In this document: piece by piece, positions 2,552 through 7,008 of the stretch | How positions within the stretch are numbered: position 1 is the stretch's first letter | Layout: every line of letters begins with the position of its first letter | Source of the DNA: Chryseolinea sp. | Lineage (GTDB): Bacteria; Bacteroidota; Bacteroidia; Cytophagales; Cyclobacteriaceae | DNA: 64,000 nt | NCBI GenBank assembly: GCA_025923195.1 | Contig: JAICGJ010000001.1 | Coordinates: forward strand, 1-64,000 | Direction: 5' to 3' | Notes under the pieces: model-generated | Databases searched by the model: none | What the model was told of the DNA's origin: nothing | Seen by the model: the letters and a program-made list of their open reading frames with translations, nothing else | Position numbers and translations under genes: made by a program

Positions 2552-3772
2552 TTGACTTTCCACAATTTTAATTTTGACAGCCGACTCGTAGATGGACTGG
2601 ATTCCATGGGTATTCGGACGCCAACACCAATTCAGGCCAAGGCAATACCCGTTATTATGAAGCAAAAGGATCTGATTGCTTGTGCCCAGACAGGAACTGG
2701 CAAAACTGCAGCGTACTTACTGCCGATACTGAATAGGATTATTCATACTGAAAAACGCCATCTAAATACGCTTATAATTGCGCCAACCAGGGAACTGGCA
2801 CAACAGATCGATCAACAGATTGAAGGGTTCGGCTACTATCTGGGAATTAGTTCCATCTCGGTATATGGTGGCGGAGATGGCGCAACATGGGATCAGCAAC
2901 GCAAAGCTCTGGAAGAAGGCGCAGACATTATCATAGCTACCCCTGGGCGACTCATAGCACTCCTGGCGACCGGCAAAATTGTTCTTGACCATCTCGAGCA
3001 CCTGGTGCTTGACGAGGCTGACCGGATGCTCGACATGGGATTTTATGACGACATCGTAAAAATCATAAACTATCTTCCCAAGAAACGGCAAACGCTACTG
3101 TTCTCTGCAACTATGCCTCCTAAGATCAGAATGCTTGCCAATAAGATATTAAACCATCCAGATGAAATAAACATTGCCATCGCCAAGCCTGCTGCTGGTA
3201 TTTTACAGCAAGCATATGTTGTCTATGATGAGCAAAAAGTTGCGCTCATTAAACATATCTTAAAGACTCACAAGTGGAACAGTGTTCTAATTTTCGCCTC
3301 CACAAAAGAAAATGTAAAAAAACTGGATGTGACATTTCAGCGCCTCGGTATTGCTGCCAAGGCATTCCACTCCGACCTTGATCAACAGGAACGCGAGCAG
3401 ATCTTGCGCGACTTTAAGAACAAGCAGATAAACATGATTATTGGCACGGACGTATTAAGCCGCGGAATTGATGTGGAGGGTATCAGTATCGTAATCAATT
3501 TTGACGTTCCACCCGATCCTGAAGATTACGTCCATCGGGTCGGGCGCACCGCGCGTGCGGAAACAACCGGCACCGCCATAACCTTCATCAATGTTAAAGA
3601 TCAGCGAAAGTTTTTGAACATTGAAAATTTGATCGGCGAGACTATCGAGAAATTGCCGTTACCCCAGTCTGTTGGCGAGGGGCCCGACTACCAACCTCAG
3701 CTTAAAAAGAAAACCAATTTCAGGAAACGTAATTTCGGAAGGCCAGTTAGAAGAAATAATTCCCGCAGATAA
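2552..3772 (+). CDS. rhlE: DEAD-box RNA helicase, RhlE type
   Basis: ATP-dependent RNA helicase used in RNA remodelling, ribosome assembly or RNA decay. In order it has the Q motif (TPTPIQAKAIP), motif I AQTGTGKTA, Ia PTRELAQQ, II DEAD, III SAT, V RGID, and VI HRVGRTAR, followed by a basic tail rich in Lys and Arg. The 406-residue length is typical of compact RhlE proteins. The start is TTG at 2552: the encoded MTFHNFNFD matches the usual RhlE N-terminus, and no suitable ATG lies upstream. It stands alone, 98 nt after the desaturase gene. Confidence 0.93.
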   Translation: MTFHNFNFDSRLVDGLDSMGIRTPTPIQAKAIPVIMKQKDLIACAQTGTGKTAAYLLPILNRIIHTEKRHLNTLIIAPTRELAQQIDQQIEGFGYYLGISSISVYGGGDGATWDQQRKALEEGADIIIATPGRLIALLATGKIVLDHLEHLVLDEADRMLDMGFYDDIVKIINYLPKKRQTLLFSATMPPKIRMLANKILNHPDEINIAIAKPAAGILQQAYVVYDEQKVALIKHILKTHKWNSVLIFASTKENVKKLDVTFQRLGIAAKAFHSDLDQQEREQILRDFKNKQINMIIGTDVLSRGIDVEGISIVINFDVPPDPEDYVHRVGRTARAETTGTAITFINVKDQRKFLNIENLIGETIEKLPLPQSVGEGPDYQPQLKKKTNFRKRNFGRPVRRNNSRR

Positions 3773-3828: not shown

Positions 3829-3842
3829 TTGACTTAAGTCAA
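3829..3842. promoter_or_regulatory. Perfect 14-bp palindrome resembling a Crp/Fnr box
   Basis: TTGACTTAAGTCAA is a perfect palindrome 76 nt before the TonB receptor start. Its form TTGAC-N4-GTCAA is close to the FNR-class operator TTGAT-N4-ATCAA. A related copy lies 32 bp further on. The gene after the receptor encodes a Crp/Fnr regulator whose recognition helix carries the FNR-type E-x-x-S-R residues, which makes it the natural candidate to bind here (inference). Confidence 0.55.
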
Positions 3843-3860
3843 CGAAATTATAAGCCTAAA

Positions 3861-3874
3861 TTAACTTAAATCAA
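3861..3874. promoter_or_regulatory. Second, imperfect Crp/Fnr-like box
   Basis: TTAACTTAAATCAA repeats the upstream palindrome with two changes, one in each arm; the right half-site ATCAA equals the FNR consensus half. Start-to-start distance from the first site is 32 bp, about three helical turns, so two dimers would bind on the same face of the DNA. It is 44 nt before the receptor start codon. Confidence 0.5.
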
Positions 3875-3918
3875 CTGTTTGTGAGACGTGCTTGTCCGAA
3901 CTTTAAGGGAATAATCTC

Positions 3919-6318
3919 ATGCCAATGGGTCGCTACTTAATCTTCGTTCTCGCCCTGTCTTTAGTTGTTGTCATACACGCCGAGGCGCAATCGACTCAAA
4001 CCATCCGGGGAAGGGTCATTGACGAAGTTGACAATACACCGCTCGTTGGCGTCAATATAGTAGTCGTCGGCGCAAAAAATACCATTGGAGCCACTACTGA
4101 TACTGAGGGGTATTACCGAATTGAAGATGTACCTATCGGAAGACAAACGCTGAAAGTCACTTACATAGGTTATGAAGATCAAATCATTTCGAATATTATG
4201 GTGACTGCCGGCAAGGAAGTCGTACTCAATTTTGGTTTGATAGAATCGGTCAGGCAGTTGACCGAGGTCGAAATCATTGCGGATACAAAGGACGATAAGA
4301 CTGCTACCAACAACGACATGGCTATTGTGAGCGCGCGCTCATTTAATGTTGAGGATACCAAGCGATACGCGGGTGCGCTTGGAGATCCATCAAGAATGGC
4401 CGCGAACTTCGCTGGAGTCGTGGGCGGTAACGATTCAAGGAATGATATCGTCGTTCGTGGGAACTCTCCAACCGGAATGTTATGGCAATTAGAGGGACTG
4501 AATATCCCGAATCCCAACCATTTTGGCGCCTTGGTGAGCACAGGAGGTCCAGTCAGTATGCTAAATAATAACAATCTGGATAAATCAGACTTCATGACCA
4601 GTGCGTTCCCAGCGCAATACGGAAACGCAACGGCTGGGGTATTTGACATTAAACTTCGCGACGGCAACAATCAAAAGAAAGAGTTTGTGGGACAAGTAGG
4701 ATTCAACGGGTTTGAATTCGGTGCCGAGGGACCGCTTTCGAAAAATTCGAAAGCCTCCTATATCGTGAACTATAGATACTCAACGCTTGGAGTATTTCAG
4801 GCTTTGGGAATAGAATTCGGCACAGGCTCGAACACCCCGCTGTATCAGGATCTCAATTTTAAGGTTAGCCTTCCGACCGGTCAAAAAAGCAAAGTCACTG
4901 TTTTTGGATTAGGAGGTAATAGCGAAGTGGATTTGTTGGGTAGTGAAGCAGACCTGGAAGAGGATGGGGATCTTTACGGGAGCGAGAATCAGGACTCTTA
5001 CCCGAGATATAAGACAAGAATTGGAGGTGTTACTTTCGAGAGCTCCGTGCTGGCCAACACTTTTTTGAAAGTGACAGCAGGCTACAGCTCAACATCTGAA
5101 TACTTTCATTCCGATTCCCTGGTCAGGAATAGTGAAGACGAAGTTATTGAGAAATACAGGAGGGCAGCCGGCGACTTTAGCACTGAAAAATTCTCCCTCA
5201 ATTTTCATACTCGCACGAAATTCGACGCAAAAAACAGTCTCACCACTGGCCTTACGGCCGACGCACTTTTATTCGAATTATTCAATCAGGATATCTATGC
5301 CAACCTCAATCGCGATACGGTAAGAATCGATATTAAAGACAAAACCGTCCTGTATCAATTCTTTACATCGTGGAAACATCGATTCAGCAATAAGCTGAGC
5401 TTGAACACAGGTATTCATGGGCAGTATTACAATTTGAATAAGCAATTTGCGCTCGAACCCAGAATAAGTTTGCAATATGCATTCAACGGCTATCGTTCGC
5501 TGAGCGTTGGTTACGGACTTCACAATCAGATTCAAAACATCACGACTTCGTTCGTACAGACCAAAAGCTCCACAGATGAGATCTTGCTCACAAATAAATA
5601 TCTTGATTATAGCACGAGCAATCATTTTGTGCTGACCTACGACTGGAATATTTCTGATAACCTCCGATTAAAAGCTGAGGCTTACTATCAACAACTTCGG
5701 AATATTCCAGTCGAGCAAAGGCCGAGTTCATTTTCCGCTCTTAATACAGGATCCAGCTTTGCTCCGTCAGACGAAGATAGCCTTATTAATAAAGGGACAG
5801 GAAGGAACATCGGACTTGAACTGACTCTTGAGCGGTTCTTCAACGATGGATATTATTTTCTAATCACTTCATCACTATTTGATTCAGAATACAAGGGTAG
5901 CGATAGGGTGAGGCGGAATACTGCTTTTAATACACAGTTTGTGTTAAATATTCTCGGAGGGAGAGAATGGAAATTAAGCAATGCCGGTAGGTTCTTTTCT
6001 TTCAATGTAAAGGTTACCACCATTGGCGGTAAATACCTGACTCCAATCGATGTCGAAAGATCTCAACAATTAGGTCGCACTGAATATTTGGAAAATGAGG
6101 CGTTTAGCGAAAAACAAAACGCCTACTTTAGAACCGACCTAAAACTTTCGTATCGCAAGGAATATGTTAAAAGTACATTGGAAATCTCGTTGGACCTGCA
6201 GAACATTTTCAATACCAAAAATATATTCTCCCAAAGCTATAATCCTAGAACCAATACCGTAGTTACCCAATATCAGCAATCATTTTTTCCGGTGCCTTAC
6301 GTTAGGTTCACGTTCTAG
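3919..6318 (+). CDS. TonB-dependent outer-membrane receptor, substrate unknown
   Basis: Outer-membrane beta-barrel transporter of 799 residues energised by TonB. It has a signal peptide (residues 1 to about 24, ending AEAQS), a carboxypeptidase-regulatory-like beta sandwich (about 27-110, TIRGRVIDEVDNTPLVGVN), a plug domain (about 130-245, with NDIVVRGNSPTGMLWQLEG) and a 22-strand-type barrel ending in the aromatic terminus YVRFTF. It lacks an adjacent SusD gene, so it is not a classical glycan-uptake pair. Two FNR-like palindromes precede it and a Crp/Fnr regulator follows 54 nt downstream, suggesting local control. Substrate cannot be inferred. Confidence 0.88.
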   Translation: MPMGRYLIFVLALSLVVVIHAEAQSTQTIRGRVIDEVDNTPLVGVNIVVVGAKNTIGATTDTEGYYRIEDVPIGRQTLKVTYIGYEDQIISNIMVTAGKEVVLNFGLIESVRQLTEVEIIADTKDDKTATNNDMAIVSARSFNVEDTKRYAGALGDPSRMAANFAGVVGGNDSRNDIVVRGNSPTGMLWQLEGLNIPNPNHFGALVSTGGPVSMLNNNNLDKSDFMTSAFPAQYGNATAGVFDIKLRDGNNQKKEFVGQVGFNGFEFGAEGPLSKNSKASYIVNYRYSTLGVFQALGIEFGTGSNTPLYQDLNFKVSLPTGQKSKVTVFGLGGNSEVDLLGSEADLEEDGDLYGSENQDSYPRYKTRIGGVTFESSVLANTFLKVTAGYSSTSEYFHSDSLVRNSEDEVIEKYRRAAGDFSTEKFSLNFHTRTKFDAKNSLTTGLTADALLFELFNQDIYANLNRDTVRIDIKDKTVLYQFFTSWKHRFSNKLSLNTGIHGQYYNLNKQFALEPRISLQYAFNGYRSLSVGYGLHNQIQNITTSFVQTKSSTDEILLTNKYLDYSTSNHFVLTYDWNISDNLRLKAEAYYQQLRNIPVEQRPSSFSALNTGSSFAPSDEDSLINKGTGRNIGLELTLERFFNDGYYFLITSSLFDSEYKGSDRVRRNTAFNTQFVLNILGGREWKLSNAGRFFSFNVKVTTIGGKYLTPIDVERSQQLGRTEYLENEAFSEKQNAYFRTDLKLSYRKEYVKSTLEISLDLQNIFNTKNIFSQSYNPRTNTVVTQYQQSFFPVPYVRFTF

Positions 6319-6372
6319 ATTCCATTTACCAACAAAATTTATTGTGTTGCCCGTGAAATTTTAGGGACTTCA

Positions 6373-7008
6373 ATGGAATCCTTGTTACCAAGAATCTCGT
6401 TAATTTCCAGCATGTATGCCGATGAATATACCTATTTGCGTCAATTTGCTCTGCAACTTGTAGACTTTTCCGAGACTGAGTGGCGTGCTCATAGAGAATT
6501 GCTCACGAGAAGATTCTTGCGAAGGGGCGAATATCTCACAGTGGCAGGCGAGGTCTGTAATTATGTGTCGTTTATTAATTGCGGCTCTTTAAGGGTTTAT
6601 ATGGAAGTTAAGGACCAGGAGATCAACAAGCATTTTTTCTTTGAGCACGAATATGCAAGTGATTATTCAAGCTTTTTAACGAGAAATCCGGGACAATTGA
6701 ATATCAAAGCGCTCGAGGATACCGAGCTAATGGAATTAAGCTATGAAAAGGTGCAGAAGCTTTACGAGGAATTTCCAATATGGCAGAAGTATGGAAGACT
6801 AATTGCCGAGCAACTTTTCATCCAGGTGGCAAGTCGAAGCCAGGAGCTGCTGCTCAGGACACCTGAAGAAATGTATATCAGGTTAATAGAAGAGCAATCG
6901 CCCATCATCGCACGACTCCCGCAACATTACATCGCGTCCTATCTTGGAATTCAGCCGGAATCGCTTAGCAGAATACGGAAACGTATAATGGAAGTAAAAA
7001 AGGTGTAG
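6373..7008 (+). CDS. Crp/Fnr family transcription regulator
   Basis: Cytoplasmic regulator of 211 residues: a cyclic-nucleotide-binding-like beta roll at about 45-125 (RRGEYLTVAGE, FINCGSLRVYM) and a helix-turn-helix at about 182-205 (HYIASYLGIQPESLSRIRK). The residues E196, S199 and R200 have the spacing of the FNR recognition helix that reads TTGAT half-sites, not the CRP pattern. No N-terminal cysteine cluster is present, so an iron-sulfur oxygen sensor is unlikely, and the phosphate-binding cassette of true cAMP receptors is not evident. A second possible start is M14, which would fit the usual family length better. Its stop is 2 nt from the end of mutS on the other strand. Confidence 0.88.
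   Translation: MESLLPRISLISSMYADEYTYLRQFALQLVDFSETEWRAHRELLTRRFLRRGEYLTVAGEVCNYVSFINCGSLRVYMEVKDQEINKHFFFEHEYASDYSSFLTRNPGQLNIKALEDTELMELSYEKVQKLYEEFPIWQKYGRLIAEQLFIQVASRSQELLLRTPEEMYIRLIEEQSPIIARLPQHYIASYLGIQPESLSRIRKRIMEVKKV

Follow-up and report, generated by a model that had tools for sequence, protein, structure and literature searches.

What do two FNR-like palindromes do in front of the gene for a TonB-dependent receptor that is itself followed by the gene for a Crp/Fnr regulator? This arrangement occurs in a 64,000-nt stretch of Chryseolinea sp. DNA (hereafter, the window). The original prediction had placed two palindromes about three turns apart before the receptor, and we found both within the 146 bp that separate a DEAD-box helicase gene (positions 2552 to 3772) from the receptor gene (3919 to 6318, plus strand). 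Site 1, TTGACTTAAGTCAA, occupies 3829 to 3842 and site 2, TTAACTTAAATCAA, occupies 3861 to 3874, neither with an assigned strand, and they are spaced 32 bp start to start. The receptor, which is the predicted target, is a 799-aa protein with a CarboxypepD_reg domain and a weak Plug match; Pfam and NCBIfam searches returned nothing specific as to its ligand. The 211-aa regulator is encoded on the plus strand at 6373 to 7008, 54 bp beyond the receptor stop codon. This short gap, together with a 4-bp overlap of the two genes in G164 and G129, suggests a single transcript, and the receptor and regulator genes probably form one operon.

The arrangement is conserved. Sixteen further loci from the same family encode an orthologous receptor (64 to 71% identical) together with a linked orthologous regulator, and in all of them both sites are present upstream of the receptor. 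With the window included, 13 of 17 loci show a spacing of exactly 32 bp, among them G164, G129, and G184, where the second site or both are one base off the strict pattern; the spacing is 31 bp in G298 and 37 bp in G250, G272, and G021, three loci that have the regulator gene upstream of the receptor. Linked receptors with palindromes were also found in additional Cytophagales MAGs. In genus g86 (L201 to L205 and L209), the receptor is followed by two tandem paralogous regulators, and in L203 the two genes before the receptor encode a histidine kinase and a LytTR response regulator, with similar-sized genes at that place in L201, L202, L204, L205, and L209.

Four genomes of the same genus (G001 to G004) have kept the receptor (64 to 68% identical) with no linked regulator, the best regulator homologs elsewhere in these genomes being at most 38% identical, and none of the four has the palindrome upstream of the receptor. 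In the receptor tree, they group with the window and G184 (support, 100/98), inside the regulator-linked clade. This nesting indicates that the regulator and the sites were probably lost together, an event that would probably amount to a natural deletion. Thus, when the pair and the regulator were followed through relatives, as the original prediction had proposed, the palindromes proved to be retained, and the site pair, with its spacing, accompanies receptor and regulator from genus to genus, and within the same genus the sites are missing along with the regulator. Both patterns argue for the predicted control of the receptor-regulator pair by the regulator. Immediately before the receptor, G001 and G003 carry a gene for a LytTR-domain protein (L064:4017-4946 and L065:5605-6534) where the Crp/Fnr regulator is missing, a possible case of regulator swap in same-genus genomes.

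CRP and FNR, as class II activators, bind sites centered near -41.5. Among 17 aligned upstream regions, the distance from the center of site 2 to the first T of a TTTG was 34.5 bp in 14 and 33.5 bp in G028 and G021; TTTG is shared by all 16 relatives, and at 34.5 bp the window has TTTA (3902 to 3905). In Flavobacterium psychrophilum, the TAnnTTTG box spans -12 to -5 (PMC9723704), so that 33.5 bp would place the site at -41.5 and 34.5 bp at -42.5, positions that depend on the start-site offset of an organism other than the host. On this scale, sites 1 and 2 of the window are centered at about -74.5 and -42.5, respectively, relative to the predicted start, and site 2 stands in the class II position. 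The predicted -7 box of the window, GAACTTTA (3898 to 3905, plus strand), was taken from the alignment of the 17 regions and matches TAnnTTTG poorly, its final base being A and not G, so the receptor promoter may be weak here or read elsewhere. Olivibacter, Parapedobacter, and a Ferruginibacter MAG also carry a receptor of 39 to 50% identity with a linked regulator and a palindrome at 33.5 bp.

We consider it very likely from these sequence comparisons that the regulator activates the adjacent receptor locally from a class II position, via the two palindromes, and thereby also raises its own expression. This reading has to be weighed against the notion that the palindromes are functionless, chance A+T-rich sequence. 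Counts of TTRAY-N4-RTYAA are what that notion would predict, with 2 occurrences in the window versus 2.64 expected and 155 genome-wide versus 142 for the reversed control; with the pattern at chance level in both, a lone site means little. The site 1 sequence itself occurs once in the 6.57-Mb genome. Two sites within one 146-bp gap of that composition, however, have a probability of about 5e-5, and their conservation in relatives, across genera and with fixed spacing, is far stronger evidence than this figure. A chance origin was therefore rejected, and its probability appears negligible. A global FNR-like regulon was also rejected, because the pattern is not over-represented genome-wide.

If the palindromes are functional, they might still be bound by a different Crp/Fnr paralog of the same cell, since the genome encodes about a dozen, several of which share the E-x-x-S-R helix and have operators resembling these. 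The palindromes are gone where the linked regulator is gone, though, even as other paralogs persist, and in almost all loci the sites adjoin the regulator, making binding by another paralog very improbable. It is also conceivable that the linked regulator binds the palindromes yet represses the receptor operon: a pair three turns apart would fit cooperative repression as well, and the sites stand before the putative operon that contains the regulator. Against this, the site center is fixed 33.5 to 34.5 bp ahead of the -7 box rather than covering it, and no TTTG is conserved at the position of the -33 element among the aligned upstream regions; repression is accordingly unlikely.

For activation by the linked regulator, we envisage that the protein would act as a dimer and would sense its signal through the N-terminal CRP-like domain, with the recognition helix (E196, S199, and R200) contacting both palindromes. 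Site 2, at about -42, would replace the -33 element and drive activation of the receptor promoter, and a cooperative or upstream contact would come from site 1, three turns further upstream. Since the regulator gene lies close behind the receptor gene, activation would also raise the level of the regulator, providing positive autoregulation.

The protein itself belongs to the CRP/FNR superfamily by its N-terminal part: PF00027, the cNMP-binding-like domain, was the sole Pfam match in the regulator (E value, 6e-9), and no Pfam HTH match was obtained. An AlphaFold2 model (pLDDT, 75.6) has a CRP fold whose last helix spans residues 195 to 208, and a fold search with this model returned 3DN7 as the best match, followed by CRP and FNR structures. 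This recognition helix contains PESLSRIRKR (195 to 204), and across 169 regulators a median of 9 residues follow E-x-x-S-R before the C terminus; ending right after the recognition helix, the protein has no C-terminal wing. E196, S199, and R200, numbered as in the original prediction, align with E209, S212, and R213 of E. coli FNR. Cys62 and Cys70 are the only cysteines (relatives have one to three), and the four 4Fe-4S cysteines of FNR are absent from the window regulator, as had been noted. The residues of the CRP cAMP pocket are absent in an alignment to E. coli CRP. Sensing of cAMP or through an Fe-S cluster finds no support in these residues and was set aside.

The argument from the E-x-x-S-R helix to the type of half-site holds as a statistical association. 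Among 103 regulator clusters at 60% identity, a palindrome lay nearby in 45 of the 72 with E196 and S199 but in only 6 of the 28 without E (P = 3e-4); by the strict pattern, about 27 of the 72 E-type clusters had none nearby. Residue 197 correlates with the third base of the half-site, which was G in 36 of 36 cases with T197 and either A (19 cases) or G (25 cases) with S197 (T versus S, P = 1.6e-6); because the two half-sites of a palindrome are linked observations, these nominal P values overstate the significance of the helix-site comparisons. The FNR combination of an E-x-x-S-R helix with TTGAT-type half-sites is thus found here, and the helix type of the window (E-S-x-S-R) also takes TTAAC and TTGAC half-sites.

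Sequence searches detected regulators of this family in 52 of 59 related genomes. An unbiased count of every 4-base half-site with spacers of 0 to 12 in the flanks of 103 paralogs ranked TTGA-N6-TCAA first (34 loci), and with 5-base half-sites TTGAT-N4-ATCAA ranked first. In a first set of 47 paralog sites, TTTG lay downstream at exactly 33.5 bp in 20, at 34.5 bp in 3, and at 56.5 bp in 7, over a background of 0.56 per offset. A second set, of 66 previously unused loci, yielded 43 sites versus 2 control-pattern sites, with TTTG at 33.5 bp 12 times and at 34.5 bp 12 times (24 occurrences). The nominal P value of this recurrence is about 1e-25 per set, with some related loci counted as independent. 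Several of the 56.5-bp cases have an imperfect second site 23 bp beyond the first; at the regulator 3' ends in L124, L129, L130, L084, and L157, the left half of the second site is TTGCG, and TTTG lies 33.5 bp from that site.

At the paralog loci, the site usually lies between the regulator stop codon and the next same-strand gene, which may encode a pirin, cupin, SnoaL, short-chain dehydrogenase, DoxX-like protein, LigB-type dioxygenase, outer-membrane barrel, or another product. One paralog in G053 (L072:3455-3499) has two sites 31 bp apart before a different gene, one with no Pfam match. In the genome of the window, four of seven composite sites adjoin a paralogous regulator (P, about 8e-10). 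Across 60 genomes the composite pattern gave 468 sites versus 251 for the control, a modest global excess that we did not use as main evidence. We lean toward the view that these proteins form a large, undescribed Bacteroidota family of wingless CRP/FNR-fold local class II activators, with tens of paralogs in some genomes, that would follow a common operator grammar (TTRAY-N4-RTYAA at -41.5), usually target the adjacent gene, and set the half-site through residues 196 and 197.

E. coli FNR pairs an E-x-x-S-R helix with a TTGAT-N4-ATCAA-type operator at the class II position, -41.5. The window regulator resembles it in recognition helix, operator type, and class II position, but lacks the 4Fe-4S cysteines and the C-terminal wing, would act locally rather than globally, and faces a different core promoter. 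With E. coli CRP it has in common the fold and the class II geometry; unlike in CRP, the cAMP-contact residues G-E-L and R-S are not kept, there is no wing, and the half-site differs. A sequence search found a single relative of solved structure (E value, 1e-22): 3DN7, a cyclic-nucleotide-binding regulatory protein of Cytophaga hutchinsonii, whose chain likewise stops just past the recognition helix; we found no function for it, only the structure entry. Bacteroides thetaiotaomicron BT4338 is also a Crp-type regulator from the Bacteroidota, and it too has an unknown effector and recognizes a palindrome, but its motif, TATGTTnTAnAACATA, differs from the window operators, and it controls a global sugar regulon (PMC3878776), whereas the window regulator is predicted to be local. 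The CRP/FNR superfamily is further represented in the Bacteroidota by HcpR, PgRsp, and CrpPg of Porphyromonas gingivalis; the first two bind heme, and CrpPg acts globally and falls outside known families (PMC12040651). We found no prior description of the present family in the open-access literature that we searched.

Our analysis goes beyond the original prediction in the class II geometry, the missing wing, and the family-wide recurrence: to judge from sequence, the layout of this locus recurs across a large, mostly unstudied Bacteroidota regulator family. The missing wing raises the question of how an FNR-type helix functions without one. The recurrence yields a testable operator rule and a set of predicted targets (pirin, cupin, short-chain dehydrogenase, SnoaL, DoxX-like, LigB, and other genes) that regulators of this family may control.
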